From assembly GCF_030540775.2 (NCBI RefSeq), contig NZ_CP141266.1, positions 2,901,001-2,965,000 on the forward strand: a stretch of 64,000 nt of DNA, in the 5' to 3' direction. Made by a program: the position numbers and the translations under genes. The notes beneath the pieces were generated by a model. It was not told the origin of the DNA and did no database searches. It saw only the letters and a list, made by a program, of their open reading frames with translations. This DNA comes from Flavivirga abyssicola (GTDB lineage Bacteria; Bacteroidota; Bacteroidia; Flavobacteriales; Flavobacteriaceae). How positions within the stretch are numbered: the stretch's first letter is position 1; each line of letters begins with the position of its first letter. Positions 20,053-29,287 of this stretch are shown piece after piece.

Positions 20053-20322
20053 TTATATCCTTAATGGGGGTTTTTAGTAAAATGAATTTATATTTTAAGA
20101 ATTAATGAAACAAAGCTATTGTATATGATAAAAAAAGAGTCATACTATTTAGTCTTATATTTGGTATAGATACTGTTCAGTCTTAAATATCAACTAACTG
20201 ATTAATTTAAGAAAATTTGCATTTTATAGTATTTGTTAAACGAACATAAAATGTTATTCCAAAAGTATAACTATAAGTAAATAATAGTAATATAATTTGT
20301 TTTCAAGGATTAAAATTGTATT

Positions 20323-20348
20323 ATTGTATTTTGTATACAAAATACAAT
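20323..20348. promoter_or_regulatory. perfect 26-bp palindrome, probable GntR operator
   Basis: The half site ATTGTATTTTGTA is followed immediately by its exact reverse complement, TACAAAATACAAT. The palindrome ends three bases before the ATG at 20352 of the GntR-family gene. FCD-type GntR regulators bind short palindromes, often upstream of their own gene, so autoregulation of the operon is likely. The position also argues against the longer reading frame that would start at a TTG at 20316, because that would put the operator inside coding sequence. Confidence 0.75.
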
Positions 20349-20351
20349 TTT

Positions 20352-20975
20352 ATGATTCAACATGCAAGTATTAGTGAACCGATATACTTAAGACTTAAGG
20401 AGATGATTCTTAATGGAGAGCTCAAACAAGGTGAAAAAATAGTACAGGAAAAAATAGCAGAAAAGCTTGGTGTGAGTAGAACACCGTTAATGAAGGCGTT
20501 ATTAGCATTAGAGAATGAATACCTAGTAGAGAGTATACCAAGAAGAGGTATGTACATACGCTCATGGGATAAAAAAGAGATTATCGATATCTATATATGC
20601 AGGGAAGCAATTGAGGGAATGGCTGCACGTTTACTAGCCCAATCAAAAGATGAGGACGTTATAAAACAACTTAGAGGTTGTTTTAGTCCTTTTTTAAATA
20701 ATAAAGAGATTGACCTTGATGCATATACAGAAGCAGATGAAGTATTTCATTCATTGCTAATTAAACTTACTGGAAATGCGCCATTGGATAAAATATATTT
20801 TTTTGGAAACATCCATGAAAAAGTGATTGGTCATGGGTTAATAAGACCGCCAGAAGAAACATTGGATGAACACTTTAAAATTATTAAGGCTATAGAAAAA
20901 GGTGATGCCGATGGAGCCGAACAATTTGCCAGAGAACATATTAAAAAATCTAGAGAATTATTATTTGATCAATAA
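20352..20975 (+). CDS. GntR-family transcriptional regulator, FCD domain
   Basis: The 207-residue protein (counted from the ATG at 20352) has an N-terminal winged helix-turn-helix (about 8-70) with IYLRLKEMILNGEL, EKIAEKLGVSRTPL and the ESIPRRGMYI wing. A C-terminal helical FCD ligand domain (about 80-205) follows, with candidate metal-binding His residues in ADEVFHSLL and DEHFKI. Such regulators usually repress sugar-acid catabolic operons and release DNA on binding the acid or an intermediate. It is the first gene of the plus-strand operon and is preceded by a perfect palindrome. The likely effector is the acid sugar or phosphorylated intermediate handled by the next genes; this is inference. 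Confidence 0.9.
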   Translation: MIQHASISEPIYLRLKEMILNGELKQGEKIVQEKIAEKLGVSRTPLMKALLALENEYLVESIPRRGMYIRSWDKKEIIDIYICREAIEGMAARLLAQSKDEDVIKQLRGCFSPFLNNKEIDLDAYTEADEVFHSLLIKLTGNAPLDKIYFFGNIHEKVIGHGLIRPPEETLDEHFKIIKAIEKGDADGAEQFAREHIKKSRELLFDQ

Positions 20976-20987
20976 AAATTAAAAAAA

Positions 20988-22034
20988 GTGAAAAATTACA
21001 ATATTGCAGTAGTACCAGGAGATGGTATAGGAAATGAAATAGTACCAGAAGGGTATAGAGTTTTGGAGGCAGTAGCAAAGAAACATAATTTTAATATTGC
21101 TTCGGAAATATTTGATTGGGGAGCAGGTTATTATTTAAAACATGGAACGTTTTTGCCAGAAGATGGCTTAAACACACTTAAAGCGTTCGATGCTGTTTAT
21201 TTTGGATCTGTTGGTTTGCCAGAAGTTGACGACACCCTTCCTGCTAAAGATTATACATTTAAAGTACGTACACATTTTGACCAGTATGTAAATTACAGGC
21301 CGGTAAGAACATATGCTGGAGTACAACGCCCATTAAGAACAGAAAAGCATATAGATTTTGTAATCGTTAGAGAAAATACAGAAGGCGAATTTGTGCAGGT
21401 AGGTAGTCAATACCTTCCGGATTCTGAAAATGGTATGGGAGTAGATACCAGTATTTTTACAAGAAAAGGTACTGAGCGTATAGCGCATTATGCGTTTAAA
21501 TTGGCCAGAAAGCGGAGAAATAAAGTAACTCACATAACAAAATCCAATACACTAATTAATAGTTTGTCATATTGGGACCGCGTTATAAAAGAGGTGGCAG
21601 CTCAATATCCGGATGTGGAACATGACCAGATGTATATTGATAATTCTACAGCAAGTTTTGTTTTAAAACCAGAAATATTTGATGTGGTACTAACTACCAA
21701 CCTTTTTGGAGATATCTTAAGTGATCTTGGTGGAGCTGTTATGGGGAGTTTAGGTCTTGGTGGTAGTGGTAACATTAATCCAGAAAAAGATTTTCCGTCT
21801 ATGTTTGAACCTATTCATGGCTCGGCACCTGATATTGCTGGTGAGAATGTAGCAAACCCCTATGGACAAATATGGTCTGCAGCAATTATGTTAGAGCATT
21901 TAGGAGAAGTCGAAGCAGCCAATAATATCATGCAAGCCATAGATAAAAGTACTTCAGAAGGCGTACTTACTAGAGACTTGGGAGGAGAAGCAAGTACTAC
22001 GGATGTAGCAGATGCTGTAATTAAAAACTTATAA
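20988..22034 (+). CDS. isocitrate/isopropylmalate-type dehydrogenase, tartrate/D-malate dehydrogenase-like
   Basis: The 348-residue enzyme starts at a GTG, 12 bases after the regulator stop. It shows the beta-decarboxylating dehydrogenase signatures: PGDGIGNEIVPE at the N terminus, IVRENTEGEF (about 125), and NLFGDILSDLGG plus FEPIHGSAPDIAG toward the C terminus. Length and pattern fit the tartrate dehydrogenase/D-malate dehydrogenase subgroup rather than leucine-biosynthetic LeuB. The reaction would be NAD-dependent oxidation, usually with decarboxylation, of a 2-hydroxy-acid, requiring a divalent metal. Next to a DUF1537 kinase gene it could act where PdxA2-type 4-phosphothreonate dehydrogenase acts elsewhere; that replacement is inference. 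Confidence 0.85.
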   Translation: MKNYNIAVVPGDGIGNEIVPEGYRVLEAVAKKHNFNIASEIFDWGAGYYLKHGTFLPEDGLNTLKAFDAVYFGSVGLPEVDDTLPAKDYTFKVRTHFDQYVNYRPVRTYAGVQRPLRTEKHIDFVIVRENTEGEFVQVGSQYLPDSENGMGVDTSIFTRKGTERIAHYAFKLARKRRNKVTHITKSNTLINSLSYWDRVIKEVAAQYPDVEHDQMYIDNSTASFVLKPEIFDVVLTTNLFGDILSDLGGAVMGSLGLGGSGNINPEKDFPSMFEPIHGSAPDIAGENVANPYGQIWSAAIMLEHLGEVEAANNIMQAIDKSTSEGVLTRDLGGEASTTDVADAVIKNL

Positions 22035-22038
22035 AAGA

Positions 22039-22677
22039 ATGCACCCTATTGTTGATCTTACATTAACGTATACCAATGGTTTTACTGGGTTTTCAAAAGA
22101 AATAAGTAAAACTATTGGTGCAGATGGATGGAATGCTAGTACACTAACATTTTATTCACATTGCGGTACTCATATGGATGCTCCCATTCATTTTAATGTA
22201 AGTAATCAAACTATAGACCACATTCCGGTAACAGACTTTGTTGGAAGAGCTTGGGTTGTTGATGTAAGGCATATAGGTTCTAAAGGCTTAATAAATCCTG
22301 AGCATATTCCTCAGAAAATAAAAGATGAATTTGTGGCTGGTGATAGTCTTATTTTTTGGACAGATTGGTCTCAATATGCAAATACTCCGAAATACAGAGA
22401 CGAGTTGCCTAGAATAAGTGAAGATCTTGCCTTGTGGTGTGTTAATAAAAAGGTGAAAATGATTGGTGTGGAGCCGCCTTCAGTAGCAGATGTGAATAAT
22501 TTAAATGAGGTTACTAAAATTCATCAAATCTTATTACAGGGAGTAGTCATTATAGAAGGGCTTACTAATATAGAGGCCTTACAAACCAATTGTGTTGAGT
22601 TGATAGCCTTACCTTTAAAAATAGGAGATGGTGATGGTGCTCCAGCACGAGTGATAGCCATTGAGAAATATTTATGA
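22039..22677 (+). CDS. cyclase-family metal-dependent hydrolase
   Basis: The 212-residue protein carries the cyclase/kynurenine-formamidase motif HxGTHxDxPxH as SHCGTHMDAPIHF (about residues 41-53), which binds a divalent metal. The family hydrolyses amides, lactones and related substrates; members occur in kynurenine degradation and many sugar-acid loci. There is no signal peptide. It starts four bases after the dehydrogenase stop and overlaps the kinase start by four bases (ATGA), so it is translationally coupled. In this operon a lactone hydrolase or isomerase-like role on an acid sugar is plausible, but no specific substrate can be read from the sequence. Confidence 0.85.
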   Translation: MHPIVDLTLTYTNGFTGFSKEISKTIGADGWNASTLTFYSHCGTHMDAPIHFNVSNQTIDHIPVTDFVGRAWVVDVRHIGSKGLINPEHIPQKIKDEFVAGDSLIFWTDWSQYANTPKYRDELPRISEDLALWCVNKKVKMIGVEPPSVADVNNLNEVTKIHQILLQGVVIIEGLTNIEALQTNCVELIALPLKIGDGDGAPARVIAIEKYL

Positions 22678-24074
22678 GTTTTTCATTATCGCACATATCA
22701 AAACAGCTACCATTAGAAGATACTTCTAATTACAGACGTTTAAATAAAGTTCTTTTTAAAGAATTGAATAGAACGTGTATAGTTATTGATGATGACCCAA
22801 CAGGAAATCAAACAGTGTATGATATACCACTTTTAACACCGTGGGATTTGGAAACTTTGATTGATGAATTTAAAAAAGAAACCCCGGTATTCTTTTTACT
22901 AACAAATTCAAGAAGTTTATCGCAAAAAAAATCGTCTGAGGTTTATCAAGAAATTTCAAAAAACATTTTAGAAGCATCAAAGCTTATTAATAGGCCATTT
23001 ACCGTTATTAGTAGAAGTGACTCTACATTGAGAGGTCATTTTTCGGAAATTGATGTCATAAAAAATACTTTGAATTTTAATGATGCGATTACCGTTTTTC
23101 TTCCTGTGATGTTTGAAGGGAATCGTGTCACGGTAAACGATATACATTATATTTCTGATGGAGATCATCTAATTCCGGTTAATGACACACCGTTTTCTCA
23201 AGACCATACCTTTGCATACTCTAAAGCAAACTTAAAAGAATGGATTGAAGAGAAAACCTCTGGAAAAGTAAATGCTTCAGATGTTTTTTCATTACCAATA
23301 GAAACCGTTAGAAGTAAAAACACAGAATGGCTTAGTGAGCAAATCAAGGCTTTAAAACCTGGAACCTTTTGTATATCAAATGCATTAAATTATTATGATC
23401 TAGATAAAATAACACAAGCTTTATTATTAGCTGAAAAATGGGGTAAAAGAATCGTATATCGTACTTCAAGTTCGTTTGTACCTTCTTATATAGGATTAGA
23501 GCCAAAACCATTATTAACTTCAGAAAAAATTATTAATTCAGATAGTCAAACAGGAGGTTTAACCATAGTAGGGTCTTATGTCCCTAAATCCTCTGAACAA
23601 CTAAATTATACTTTAAATTATTACAATAAAAATAACATTATTGAAATCAATGTTGAAACCATATTAAAAGAAGATGCCGATTTGTATTTAGCATCTATTA
23701 TTACAAAAATAGATGAAAGTATAGCTAGAGGGAATGATGTTATTGTTTATACAAGTAGAAAATTAATTACAGGAAAAAATGCTGATTCCAACATAGATAT
23801 TGCGTCCAAAGTATCTGATGCTTTAGTTACTTTGGTTAAAGGTATTGGTGTATGCCCAAAATATATATTAGCCAAAGGAGGTATTACGTCACATGATTTG
23901 GCATTAAAAGGCTTAGGAATGAGACGCTCAAAGGTTTTAGGTCAAATAGAACCAGGAGTTCCCGTTTGGCAAATGGGCAAAGAAACAAAATTTCCAAAAT
24001 TACTATATATCGTATTCCCTGGTAATGTAGGTCATAAGAAATCACTTTTAACAATAACTCAAAAACTATCTTGA
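22674..24074 (+). CDS. DUF1537 four-carbon acid-sugar kinase
   Basis: The 466-residue protein has the N-terminal DUF1537 motif DDDPTGNQ (about residue 38) and the SRSDSTLRGH segment (about 113), forming the acid-sugar-binding domain. The C-terminal nucleotide-binding domain shows AKGGITSHDLALKGL and GQIEPGVPVWQMG. Characterised members phosphorylate D-threonate, L-threonate or D-erythronate at C4 using ATP. Their usual partners are PdxA2, or OtnI/OtnC with an aldolase, none of which is seen here. The start overlaps the cyclase stop by four bases and the MFS gene begins two bases after its stop. The substrate is therefore a C4 (or similar) acid sugar of unknown identity. Confidence 0.9.
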   Translation: MSFSLSHISKQLPLEDTSNYRRLNKVLFKELNRTCIVIDDDPTGNQTVYDIPLLTPWDLETLIDEFKKETPVFFLLTNSRSLSQKKSSEVYQEISKNILEASKLINRPFTVISRSDSTLRGHFSEIDVIKNTLNFNDAITVFLPVMFEGNRVTVNDIHYISDGDHLIPVNDTPFSQDHTFAYSKANLKEWIEEKTSGKVNASDVFSLPIETVRSKNTEWLSEQIKALKPGTFCISNALNYYDLDKITQALLLAEKWGKRIVYRTSSSFVPSYIGLEPKPLLTSEKIINSDSQTGGLTIVGSYVPKSSEQLNYTLNYYNKNNIIEINVETILKEDADLYLASIITKIDESIARGNDVIVYTSRKLITGKNADSNIDIASKVSDALVTLVKGIGVCPKYILAKGGITSHDLALKGLGMRRSKVLGQIEPGVPVWQMGKETKFPKLLYIVFPGNVGHKKSLLTITQKLS

Positions 24075-24075
24075 T

Positions 24076-25341
24076 ATGAGCAAGTCAATACCATCCAAAA
24101 GATATGGATTTTTCGCAGGTTCTTTTTTAATTACCCTGTTATTGTATATAGATCGTGTCTGTATTTCATCAGCCAAAGATTCTATTAGTGGGGATTTAAA
24201 TCTTACCGATATCCAAATGGGATGGGTTTTAAGTGCTTTTGCACTAGGATATGCTTTGTTTCAAGTACCAGGAGGTGCATTAGGCGATAAATACGGGGTG
24301 CGTCGGGTTATGACATCCATTATGGTATTGTGGTCTATATTTACAGCGTTAACCGGAGCAGCTTGGAACTATATCTCGATCCTTGCATTTAGATTTATTT
24401 TTGGAGCAGGAGAAGCAGGTGCATTTCCTAATATTTCAAGAGCTGCATTTTCATGGGTGCCATTAAAAGAGCGCGGTATTTTTCAAGGAATAAACTTTTC
24501 AGGATCAAGATTAGGAGCTGCTTTTGCACTGCCCTTGGTTGCTTATTTGATAGATGCCTGGGGATGGCGAGCTATTTTTTATTTTTTCGGAGCTGTAGGG
24601 ATTATTTGTTCGGTAGTATTCTATGTTTTATTTAGAAATAAACCAGAAGAACATAAAGCAATATCAGATGAGGAGAAAGCATATATTGTAGAAAATCGAC
24701 AACAAGAAGACAAAACAACAAAAAGAATACTACCATTAAGTCGTATTTTAGGCTCTAAAAATGTGATTCTGGCAATGGTTCAATATGTAGGAAGTAATTT
24801 TATTTTCTTTTTTATGCTAACCTGGTTGTTTCCTTATATCAAAGCAAAATATAACCTAAACCTTGTTACTACTGGATTTTATGCCATGTTACCTTTACTC
24901 GCTGGTGCAGTAGGTAATTGGGTTTCTGGTTATACTGTTGATGCTATTTATAAAAAGGGGAAATGGAAATTATCCAGACAAATACCAGCTATAATTGGTT
25001 TTTCTTTAGTTGTTATAGGAATTCTTACAAGTTTATATATGAAAACTGCCTTAGGTGCCGTTTTATGTTTATCGGTTGCCATTTTTGGAGCTGATATGAC
25101 ATTGAGCCCCTCTTGGTCGTTTTGCATGGACATTGGAAAAGAAAATTCCGGAAAAGTTTCTGGAATGATGAATATGGCTGGTAACCTAGGATCTTTTTCT
25201 ACGGCATTGGCATTTCCTTATTTAATGGCTTGGACAGGCTCTAACGAGCCATTCTTCTTTATCGCTGCATTTTTAGGAGTGATAGCTATCGTTTGTTGGT
25301 TATTTATGGATTCTGCTAAAGAAATACGTTATGAAAAATAA
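24076..25341 (+). CDS. MFS transporter, anion:cation symporter type
   Basis: The 421-residue membrane protein has about 12 transmembrane segments and the MFS loop 2-3 signature in GALGDKYGVRRV. The DIQMGWVLSAFALGYALFQ stretch is typical of the ACS subfamily, which takes up hexuronates, glucarate, tartrate and other organic anions. It should import an acid sugar across the inner membrane with a cation. It lies two bases after the kinase stop and overlaps the next gene by 11 bases, so it is part of the same transcript. Uptake of the kinase substrate or its precursor is the simplest reading. Confidence 0.88.
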   Translation: MSKSIPSKRYGFFAGSFLITLLLYIDRVCISSAKDSISGDLNLTDIQMGWVLSAFALGYALFQVPGGALGDKYGVRRVMTSIMVLWSIFTALTGAAWNYISILAFRFIFGAGEAGAFPNISRAAFSWVPLKERGIFQGINFSGSRLGAAFALPLVAYLIDAWGWRAIFYFFGAVGIICSVVFYVLFRNKPEEHKAISDEEKAYIVENRQQEDKTTKRILPLSRILGSKNVILAMVQYVGSNFIFFFMLTWLFPYIKAKYNLNLVTTGFYAMLPLLAGAVGNWVSGYTVDAIYKKGKWKLSRQIPAIIGFSLVVIGILTSLYMKTALGAVLCLSVAIFGADMTLSPSWSFCMDIGKENSGKVSGMMNMAGNLGSFSTALAFPYLMAWTGSNEPFFFIAAFLGVIAIVCWLFMDSAKEIRYEK

Positions 25342-26356
25342 ATTAAAAGGTGTTGCCATTGGCGCGGGATATTTTAGTAAGTTTCAATATGAAGCTTGGA
25401 CCCGTATTCCTGAGGTTGAAATGGTGGCACTTTGTAATTCTAATTTAGAAAGAGCAGTAGGTATTATGAACGCCTACGGCATTAAAAAACATTATGCCGA
25501 TTATAAAGAAATGATCATAAAAGAAACCCCTGATTTTATAGACATTATTACACCACCAGAGACACATCTTGAAATGTGTAAGTTTGCTGCAGATCATGGA
25601 GTGCATATTATTTGTCAAAAACCACTTGCCCCAACTTTTGCTGAGGCTAAGGAAATAGTAGATTATGCACAAAAAAAGGGAGTGCACTTTGTGGTTCATG
25701 AAAATTTTAGATATCAACCATGGCACAGAGAAATAAAAAAAATCATTGATCACGGGGAGATAGGAGATCTATTCAGCTTGAATTTTAGATCACGTATGGG
25801 AGACGGATGGGGAGAAGATGCCTATTTATCAAGGCAACCTTATTTTAGAGATTATGAGAGGTTGCTTATCTATGAAACTGGAGTGCATTTTATAGATACT
25901 TTTCGATATCATGTTGGAGAGATTGAAAGTGTTTATACGATACTTAAACGGTTGAATCCGGTTATAAAAGGAGAAGATTTAGGGTTGATGATTCTTAATT
26001 TTAAAAATAATGCACATGCCATTTGGGATGCAAATAGATATAATGAGAGTCATTTTAAAAATGCAAGATATACTTTTGGGGAGTATTTAATTGATGCTTC
26101 TAAGGGTAGTGTTAGACTATATTCCGATGGAAAAATCACCATTCAAAAATTAGGAGAAGCAGAGAAAAATCATCCATACGTACATAACAATATAGGTTTT
26201 GCTGGTGATTGTTGTTATATTTTTCAAAGAGATTTTGTAGATAGTTTTCTTTCAACAGGTGTTTTTGAAACGAGTGGTGTAGATTATTTAAAAACATTAA
26301 AAGCGCAAGATGCAGTGTATGAATCGGCTAAAATAAATAAACCCGTATTTGTTTAA
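25331..26356 (+). CDS. Gfo/Idh/MocA-family oxidoreductase
   Basis: The 341-residue protein has an N-terminal Rossmann motif GAGYFSKFQ and the CQKPLAPT segment (the EKP motif of the family with Gln in place of Glu). A C-terminal dimerisation and substrate domain follows, with HFIDTFRYHVGE carrying the conserved His. These NAD(P)-dependent enzymes oxidise or epimerise hydroxyl groups on sugars, inositols or sugar acids. There is no Tat or Sec signal, so it is cytoplasmic. The start overlaps the transporter gene by 11 bases. It may oxidise a larger acid sugar to feed the C4 steps; the substrate is not determined. Confidence 0.87.
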   Translation: MKNKLKGVAIGAGYFSKFQYEAWTRIPEVEMVALCNSNLERAVGIMNAYGIKKHYADYKEMIIKETPDFIDIITPPETHLEMCKFAADHGVHIICQKPLAPTFAEAKEIVDYAQKKGVHFVVHENFRYQPWHREIKKIIDHGEIGDLFSLNFRSRMGDGWGEDAYLSRQPYFRDYERLLIYETGVHFIDTFRYHVGEIESVYTILKRLNPVIKGEDLGLMILNFKNNAHAIWDANRYNESHFKNARYTFGEYLIDASKGSVRLYSDGKITIQKLGEAEKNHPYVHNNIGFAGDCCYIFQRDFVDSFLSTGVFETSGVDYLKTLKAQDAVYESAKINKPVFV

Positions 26357-26414: not shown

Positions 26415-28205
26415 ATGAAAAGAATATTTGTTTTAGTAGGTTTATCATTTTTATTTTTTAAACCTGTTTTTTCGCAAGAATCGAAGGTGTCCATTGAAGG
26501 CGAATTGAAAAAATGGCATAAAGTGACACTTAATTTTACAGGTAAAGAATTGGCTGAATATGGTGCAGAAAACCCATTTTTAGATTACCGTTTAAATGTC
26601 ATGTTTAAAAATAAGAATAAGACCTACGTGGTTCCTGGGTTTTATGCCGCCGATGGTGACGCTGGTGAGACAAGTGCAGACAAAGGTAATGTATGGCAAG
26701 TAAGGTTTACACCAGATGCCATAGGGAAATGGACGTATCATGTGTCCTTTAGAAAAGGAAAAGCTATTGCGGTAAGTGACGATCCTAAAGCAGGAAAAGC
26801 AGTTCAATTTGATAATATAAGCGGTGATTTTTCAATCGAAGAATCAGATAAATCTGGTCGCGATTTTAGAGGTAAAGGCCGTTTAGTTTATACTGATACG
26901 GGATATCTTCAATTTCAAGAGACAAAAGATTATTTCCTTAAAGGAGGCACCGATAGCCCCGAAAGTTTTTTAGCATATTATGAATTTGATCAAACGCCAG
27001 CATCCCATAAATATGAGCCACATGCTAAAGACTGGAAAGTTGGTGATCCAACCTGGAAAAATGGAAAAGGTAAAAACATAATAGGAGCCTTGAATTATTT
27101 GAGTTCAAAAGATATGAATGCTGTTTACTTTCTTACCATGAACGTTCAGGGAGATGGTAAAGATGTTTGGCCATGGAATGATATTAACGAGCGCTATAGG
27201 TTTGATTGTAGTAAATTAGATCAATGGGAGGTTATTTTCGATTATATGGATGCCTTAGGTTTAATGCTTCATATTGTAACTCAGGAAACAGAAAATGAAT
27301 TGTTATTGGACATAGGACAATTAGGTGTGCAACGAAAACTTTACTATAGAGAACTTATTGCACGCTTTTCTCATCATTTAGGAATAACTTGGAATTTAGG
27401 GGAAGAAAATGGACCATTGCACTGGACACCTAAAGGACAAGACGATAAAGATAGAAAAGCTATGGCAAAGTATATAAAAACTCATGATCCATATAAAAAT
27501 ATAGTTGTTTTACATTCTCATGCTAATAGTGATGCGCAAGATTTATTTCTTGAACCATTATTAGGCTATGCCTATTTAGATGGGCCATCTATGCAAACAC
27601 ATGATCCGAAAGATGTGCATGACCGAACTATTAAGTTTGTAGATGCTTCTAAAAAAACGGAAAGACGGTGGATTGTTTGTCAGGATGAAATAGGGCCAGC
27701 ACATACTGGAGCAAAACCAGATGCAGATGATCCTGAGCATAACGAGATAAGAGCCCAGGTTTTATGGGGTAATTTAATGGCTGGTGGAGCAGGAGTTGAA
27801 TGGTATTTTGGATATAAATATGCTCATAACGATTTAAAATGTGAAGACTGGCGCTCAAGAGATCTCCTATGGGATCAAACAAAACATGCTTTAGACTTTT
27901 TTCAAAAGCACGTGCCCTTTACGAAAATGCATGCCGCTGATAATCTTACCGATAATCCTAATGATTATGTGTTTGCAGAAAATGGGAGTACTTATGTTGT
28001 TTACTTGCCAACAGTTACCGATACAAAAATCGATTTATACAGCTTTAATTCTAAATTCAATGTAAAATGGTATAACCCAAGAACTGGAGGGAGCTTGCAA
28101 AAAGGAAGTGTAAAAACAATAAAAGGAGGTGGAGTTGTTTCTATTGGATTGCCACCAAGTAAAGATAAAGATTGGGTAGCCTTAATCACAGTAAAAAAAA
28201 AATAG
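26415..28205 (+). CDS. secreted DUF5060 glycoside-hydrolase-like protein (5' part of a split gene)
   Basis: The 596-residue product has a signal peptide (to about residue 21, FSQ) and an N-terminal DUF5060 beta-sandwich (about 25-110). A TIM-barrel-like catalytic region (about 150-490) and a C-terminal domain like the putative collagen-binding domain seen after DUF4038 barrels (about 515-595, KWYNPRTGG) follow. Candidate catalytic acids lie in WNLGEENG (about 328) and CQDEIGPA (about 422). The frame ends at a TAG right after a run of ten A. The frame one base back continues without a stop into 28202-29287, so this is likely the front of a ~957-residue protein. It probably releases the sugar imported by this operon. 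Substrate unknown. Confidence 0.8.
   Translation: MKRIFVLVGLSFLFFKPVFSQESKVSIEGELKKWHKVTLNFTGKELAEYGAENPFLDYRLNVMFKNKNKTYVVPGFYAADGDAGETSADKGNVWQVRFTPDAIGKWTYHVSFRKGKAIAVSDDPKAGKAVQFDNISGDFSIEESDKSGRDFRGKGRLVYTDTGYLQFQETKDYFLKGGTDSPESFLAYYEFDQTPASHKYEPHAKDWKVGDPTWKNGKGKNIIGALNYLSSKDMNAVYFLTMNVQGDGKDVWPWNDINERYRFDCSKLDQWEVIFDYMDALGLMLHIVTQETENELLLDIGQLGVQRKLYYRELIARFSHHLGITWNLGEENGPLHWTPKGQDDKDRKAMAKYIKTHDPYKNIVVLHSHANSDAQDLFLEPLLGYAYLDGPSMQTHDPKDVHDRTIKFVDASKKTERRWIVCQDEIGPAHTGAKPDADDPEHNEIRAQVLWGNLMAGGAGVEWYFGYKYAHNDLKCEDWRSRDLLWDQTKHALDFFQKHVPFTKMHAADNLTDNPNDYVFAENGSTYVVYLPTVTDTKIDLYSFNSKFNVKWYNPRTGGSLQKGSVKTIKGGGVVSIGLPPSKDKDWVALITVKKK
28193..28202 (+). repeat. A10 homopolymer at the frame break of the DUF5060 gene
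   Basis: Ten consecutive A (28193-28202) sit at the point where the upstream frame meets its TAG stop. One extra A, or a -1 shift on an A AAA AAA heptamer, joins the upstream 596-codon frame to the downstream 361 codons. The cause may be sequencing error, phase variation, transcriptional slippage or decay. Confidence 0.75.
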
Positions 28206-29287
28206 CGTCTACTACAAAGCACGATGAAGACACTGTTATAACTTTGAAAGCATTATCCGATTTTGAAATTAATAAAGCTAACGAGGCCGTATATTATGTA
28301 GATCAAGGCAATAGCGTATTATCAATAGATGCATCTAACAAATCATTAAGAAACAAGTTTGCAGGAGCAAGAACCATATTTAAAGGAAAAAGTGGCCTTT
28401 ATAAAGCCGTTCTGACTGCAATGGCAGAAAATGACGGTGAATCTGTTTACAAAATAAAAATAAATGGAAAAGAAGTAAGCACATTGGAAAACCCTTCTAC
28501 AAAATCTTCTTTTTCAACAGTAAAGCATAAGTTAGATTTATATCTTCATAAAAATGATATTATAGAAATATTATCTAAAGCAGTAACTAATGGCAAAATA
28601 CCAGAAAATGATGAAACAGCATGGTCTAGGGGTAGGTGGAGTTCTTTAATATTAAAGCCCGTTGGCCTAGAAGTAACTAATAAGCTTAAAGAAGTAAAGC
28701 CATTTCTGGAAAAAGATGGTTTTTTACAGGTCGAAGCAGAGAATTTCCACGATAAGACTAATAATGAGGTAAAGCGTGAGTGGTATATTAGATCTAACAA
28801 TGATGATATTCCTTTTTCTGGAGATACTATAGAGAATCATTCAACAACAGCTAGTAAGGGGGCTTATATTGAAGCATTACCGGATACTAGAGTAACGCAT
28901 GATGATGCACTCATAACTGGAGAAAATTTCTTTCCAGTTCCAGGCACAGGAGGGATTGTTTCTTATAAAGTTAAAATTACAAACCCAGGAATATATTATG
29001 TTTGGGCATTAGCTTATTCTACAGGTACAGAAGATAATGGTTTACACGTAGGTATCAATGGCGAATGGCCAGAAAGTGGAGCCCGTATTCAATGGTGTGA
29101 AGGTAAAGACAGATGGACTTGGTCTTCAGCACAACGTGTTCCGGAAAATCATTGTGGTATCCCGCAAACTATAACTCTTAATTTTGAAAAAGCAGGAAAT
29201 TATGTTGTTTCATTCTCAATGCGTGAAGATGGTTTTGAGTTTGATAAATGGATACTGACCAAAGATAAAAGCTTTATACCTAAATAA
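28202..29287 (+). CDS. carbohydrate-binding-like C-terminal part of the split DUF5060 protein
   Basis: This frame encodes 361 residues with no signal peptide and no credible start; the apparent TTG start at 28172 lies inside the upstream gene. Two beta-rich domains are visible. One (about the first 140 residues) contains YKIKINGKEV and WSRGRWSSLILKP. The other (about 150-361), with FLQVEAENFHDK, GIYYVWALAYSTG and DGFEFDKWILTKD, resembles the C-terminal domain found on GH115 and CBM6/35-like modules. It is best read as the C-terminal half of the preceding gene, separated by one base of frame. If expressed alone it would stay in the cytoplasm, which would make no sense for a binding module. Confidence 0.7.
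   Translation: MASTTKHDEDTVITLKALSDFEINKANEAVYYVDQGNSVLSIDASNKSLRNKFAGARTIFKGKSGLYKAVLTAMAENDGESVYKIKINGKEVSTLENPSTKSSFSTVKHKLDLYLHKNDIIEILSKAVTNGKIPENDETAWSRGRWSSLILKPVGLEVTNKLKEVKPFLEKDGFLQVEAENFHDKTNNEVKREWYIRSNNDDIPFSGDTIENHSTTASKGAYIEALPDTRVTHDDALITGENFFPVPGTGGIVSYKVKITNPGIYYVWALAYSTGTEDNGLHVGINGEWPESGARIQWCEGKDRWTWSSAQRVPENHCGIPQTITLNFEKAGNYVVSFSMREDGFEFDKWILTKDKSFIPK

Follow-up and report, generated by a model that had tools for sequence, protein, structure and literature searches.

Does a run of ten adenines (A10) that splits a gene for a predicted secreted glycosidase in the marine bacterium Flavivirga abyssicola act as a switch between a short and a long product, or is the split an accident, either of the DNA or of its assembly? 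The run lies at positions 28193-28202 of the window (the whole stretch of 64,000 nucleotides that was analysed, taken from a genome assembled as a 4.68-Mb single contig) and has TAG (28203-28205) directly behind it. The split most likely arose through a chance indel of one base in a long homopolymer or through an assembly miscount, rather than as an evolved switch. Our leading reading, at a probability of roughly 45%, is a recent one-base contraction of the homopolymer that is private to this lineage and real in the sequenced clone.

The upstream part of the gene (ORF1, 26415-28205, plus strand) encodes 596 aa with a signal-like N-terminus and ends in LITVKKK, the tract being read as GTA AAA AAA AAA TAG with a premature stop that arises from the frame change. 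The remainder continues on the same strand in the -1 frame (28202-29287) and comprises 361 residues in two beta-rich modules, the second weakly resembling GH115_C. This frame extends from its previous in-frame stop at 28166 to its end at 29287; its only early starts are TTG codons at 28172 and 28244, and its first ATG (28421) falls inside the first accessory domain. A check for starts and signals detected neither an ATG of its own near the tract nor a signal peptide, as originally predicted. An independent downstream gene was thus ruled out, as it would lack a signal peptide and have its first ATG no earlier than midway through that domain. The third frame is shut within about 10 codons of the tract; the long frame is consequently open in just one of the three run-length classes, the other two meeting a stop within about 10 codons. 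The original prediction that the A10 tract splits one ancestral protein is borne out in its coordinates and its description.

In relatives, the gene is in one piece. It was found in 6 of the 11 other Flavivirga genomes (the congeners compared include F. rizhaonensis and F. algicola), in all six as one ORF of 956-970 aa, which agrees with the length of about 957 residues proposed for the restored protein. In a wider homologue search covering 80 loci, single ORFs were also the rule among 34 further long homologues, 30 of which have 922-979 codons counted from the match start. The continuous frame that had been proposed as a check is therefore present in both sets, and the split organisation was encountered in no Flavivirga orthologue and nowhere in the wider homologue set. 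The remaining four long homologues differ at places other than the linker break: a Saprospiraceae MAG has a later stop, Flavicella marina has lost the second module, the second copy in Lutibacter oricola has lost the first, and Mariniflexile fucanivorans encodes a longer fused protein of 2153 residues. The C-terminal modules thus appear to be gained or lost independently in the latter three. About 38 homologues end naturally at the break point; most belong to Planctomycetota, with others from KSB1, Pontibacter and one Cellulophaga.

The closest relative, F. rizhaonensis, is 94% identical over the C-terminal part and locates the change. The sister sequence reads ATC ACT GCA ACA AAA AAA ATA GCT and the window reads ATC ACA GTA AAA AAA AAA TAG CG: an AAA stands where the sister has ACA, which lengthens the run, and the frame of the window is shifted by one base against that of the relatives. 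At the tract position congeners carry A8 or shorter, in frame, and no run of at least 9 occurs there in any relative among the Flavivirga orthologues and the wider homologue set. Lys, Ser and Thr abound in the freely diverging linker, and two related Maribacter carry an A9 that is in frame, some ten codons farther along. A slippery linker conserved across the family was ruled out, the A-runs of the linker being unlike in length and place. That the break falls at a domain boundary is unremarkable in itself, AAA-rich linkers being where long A-runs arise.

What the short product would be can be judged from its domains and predicted fold. The DUF5060 profile (PF16586) matches residues 31-113 above the curated Pfam cut-off (E 1e-21) and Collagen_bind_2 (Pfam) matches residues 513-590, both wholly inside ORF1, as expected of a short product without the C-terminal accessory modules; in the C-terminal part the sole Pfam match is GH115_C, below the curated cut-off. 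ORF1 is accordingly ordered as a signal-like N-terminus, a DUF5060 beta domain, a TIM barrel resembling those of GH5 and GH140 and a C-terminal beta domain (Collagen_bind_2). Sequence searches of the PDB with the protein gave no match, and the fold was analysed on an AlphaFold2 model of the F. rizhaonensis protein (mean pLDDT 84.5), in which the GH5/GH140-like TIM barrel is present. In this model the last core strand (587-593) is followed by a linker (599-602, pLDDT < 50) and then by beta-rich modules, so that the break corresponds to a low-confidence linker directly past the last core strand. The structural matches, 4n0r (Z 30.4), ManDH5 (9gpa, Z 28.7) and the GH140 structure 8t9w (Z 25.2), span model residues 22-597 and end there, with Z of 25-30 overall. 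The beta domain, TIM barrel and C-terminal beta domain are common to our protein and to 4n0r (a Bacteroides glycoside hydrolase), ManDH5 (a GH5 mannanase) and the GH140 apiosidases 8t9w and 5msy, although sequence identity to these is only about 15-17% and the matches do not extend to the C-terminal modules. Two glutamates, E330 and E425, do not vary across 38 homologues and are putative catalytic carboxylates, assigned from this conservation. Because the structural matches stop at 597 and homologues end naturally there, the 596-aa product is very probably a complete catalytic unit, and the model suggests that it is probably a folded enzyme lacking accessory modules. The downstream part, to judge from its beta-rich modules, may plausibly bind carbohydrate. 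No paper on the function of DUF5060 turned up in the literature that was searched.

Directly upstream of the split gene (20316-26356) lies a same-strand cluster encoding a GntR/FCD regulator, an isocitrate/isopropylmalate-type dehydrogenase, a cyclase-family protein, an SBD_N/NBD_C kinase-type protein, an MFS transporter and a GFO/IDH/MocA oxidoreductase, which looks like a pathway for the breakdown of an acidic sugar. Two paralogues with unbroken frames are located at contig positions 208982-210736 (41% identity over the core) and 159918-161732 (37%). They are too distant, at 37-41% identity, to be intact duplicates of the split gene, and were ruled out as such.

Selection has acted alike on both parts of the gene. 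In the comparison with the sister, dN/dS comes to 0.105 for the part upstream of the tract and to 0.117 for the part downstream of it; private changes in the downstream part number 10 synonymous and 9 non-synonymous in the window lineage, the sister having 13 and 11. By these measures the downstream part has neither acquired a further stop nor come under relaxed selection. The decay considered in the original prediction, if taken to mean accumulated damage, is thus not seen. Since constraint on the downstream part is unchanged, the break must be of very recent date or be rescued functionally, unless it is not real; the lack of decay fits an artefact or a maintained rescue equally well as a very recent mutation.

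If the DNA truly carries A10, the sequence comparison would suggest the following path, which we infer rather than observe. A C-to-A change would have converted the linker codon ACA to AAA, fusing short A-runs into a single long stretch without interruption, on which replication slippage would then have produced A10 with a stop right behind it. Standard decoding would yield a 596-aa secreted enzyme with its catalytic unit complete and its two C-terminal modules missing. RNA polymerase slippage on the run would probably affect a minority of transcripts, an unevolved leak from which a certain amount of full-length protein would come; by analogy with known cases, such incidental transcriptional slippage probably does yield some full-length protein if A10 is real. 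With ten A the run is long enough for a transcriptional slippage site, which takes at least 9 A or T. The contraction is further supported by the natural occurrence of short forms elsewhere (about 38), by relatives that lack either module and by the depletion of long A/T runs in genes. Across 400 kb, compared with synonymous-codon shuffles, one in-gene A10 was observed where 7.9 were expected and seven A9 where 21.0 were expected, and long T-runs in genes are likewise rarer than the shuffles predict. This depletion fits the view that such runs are slippage-prone here.

Counting against a real contraction, an assembly or base-calling error in the long homopolymer would account for the same data, in which case the gene would be unbroken and its product an ordinary enzyme of about 957 residues. 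This is a serious contender, if itself somewhat short of an even chance, and on the assembled sequence the choice between a real contraction and a miscount is nearly even. The errors of long-read assemblies are chiefly homopolymer indels (PMC12007338), and two other frameshifts in the genome raise the likelihood of a miscount. A G8 run at contig 599875-599882 breaks a gene of the GSDH family (glucose/sorbosone dehydrogenase; contig position about 599139-600267) that is one ORF of 376-407 codons, devoid of such a run, in all 11 other Flavivirga genomes. A T9 run on the minus strand at contig 2768445-2768453 breaks a DUF1800 gene (contig position about 2767130-2768783), the two parts of which align to neighbouring segments of the Pfam profile (1-93 and 91-407); the genus offered no close orthologue of this gene for comparison. 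All three frameshifts found (A10, T9 and G8) are located at long runs and are not all of one sign, which replication slippage and base-calling error would predict alike. A reference-free frame-switch scan covering 1.2 Mb of this genome and, in a congener with a complete genome, 660 kb revealed no break at a run of at least 8 in the congener, and this, like the lack of decay downstream of A10, speaks for an error; the scan misses the G8 case and therefore undercounts, and its output consists mostly of ordinary neighbouring genes with non-ATG starts. Against an error, most long runs are harmless. When A/T runs of at least 9 and G/C runs of at least 6 were listed over 400 kb, only A10 and T9 coincided with a broken gene; A10 runs elsewhere in the genome sit in long open frames, and comparison of 113 ORFs with relatives disclosed no frameshift besides the A10 case. 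The assembly is therefore not generally poor at homopolymers. Other disrupted pairs among the compared ORFs were set aside: in these, short reference ORFs that are most likely non-coding meet a stop in the same frame. A G10 run was also noted, at contig 568978-568987 of this genome of 33% GC; it lies outside any long ORF and has no tRNA or Rfam match.

Far less probable than either is an A10 that has been kept through transcriptional slippage for a set mix of short enzyme and long enzyme with accessory modules. Runs of at least 9 A do slip in bacteria (PMC1088944), and poly-A frameshifts in endosymbionts are reported to be corrected in 12-50% of transcripts (PMC5009743); moreover, the break coincides with a domain boundary, the short form is natural elsewhere and decay is absent. 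Yet the organisation is common to no relative, such sharing being the criterion for function of Baranov et al. (PMC1088944), the lysine-rich linker would place the break at a domain boundary by chance, and the other homopolymer frameshifts of this genome, G8 and T9, run through domains. Still more doubtful is a species-specific switch in which A10 sets a stable ratio of short to long glycosidase, with RNA polymerase slippage tuning the module content.

Phase variation, in which reversible changes in run length would turn the accessory modules on or off between cells, is very unlikely. Homopolymer tracts are a standard contingency mechanism, and a long frame open in only one of three run-length classes is what such a mechanism would present; however, runs of at least 9 are missing from the tract position in every relative and depleted in genes here, and contingency genes do not typically encode secreted saccharolytic enzymes. 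No paper on homopolymer phase variation in Flavobacteriaceae turned up in the literature that was searched. The original suggestion of an evolved slippage or phase-variation switch is accordingly not upheld, with run and split absent from all relatives and long runs avoided in genes. Programmed -1 ribosomal frameshifting of the Escherichia coli dnaX kind, also part of that prediction, is the least credible of all: the heptamer A AAA AAA is in the right phase (0 frame) with a stop directly after it, but an RNA stimulator was ruled out, as downstream folding is no better than in shuffles (z +0.83, +1.16 and +0.90) and neither an above-shuffle stem-loop nor an Rfam match was found, no Shine-Dalgarno-like sequence precedes the heptamer, and the site and overlapping frames are not conserved, relatives having one frame and variable linkers.

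The preferred reading of a chance contraction or miscount has practical consequences. For annotation, the locus should be recorded as one frameshifted gene rather than two. Should A10 be true in the DNA, it would offer a natural reporter through which transcriptional slippage could be followed in a member of the Bacteroidota that is not an endosymbiont, together with a matched pair of short and long versions of the same enzyme with which to probe the role of accessory modules. Should it be false, the lesson would be that long homopolymers in single-contig assemblies need checks before claims of recoding or phase variation are made.

Several known systems provide a frame for this case. For a maintained mix of products, the slippage model is Shigella mxiE, and likewise Thermus dnaX with opposite polarity. 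Closer to our locus are the poly-A frameshifts of Buchnera and Blochmannia (PMC3017870, PMC5009743), in which, as here, a one-base indel leaves the gene otherwise intact and without accelerated evolution (PMC3017870), and partial rescue through transcriptional slippage is likely, as we suppose for A10; a transcriptome-wide study of Buchnera, on the other hand, saw no restoration of frame (PMC5574713). Those genomes are reduced, dense in poly-A runs and in some cases backed by transcript data, whereas the 4.7-Mb flavobacterial genome avoids long runs in its genes. Also close are the six frameshifted genes described by Baranov et al. in 2005 at runs of 9 A or T, with homologues that are single ORFs (PMC1088944). 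There, as here, two ORFs that homologues carry as one are connected through a run of at least 9 A, an insertion during transcription would restore the protein, and the split is not conserved; the difference is that the slippage capacity of Flavivirga is deduced only from the depletion of long runs in its genes. The A10 gene falls within the class of Baranov et al., frameshifted, with single-ORF homologues and perhaps partly corrected by slippage, and the case is a fresh example of an already known phenomenon.
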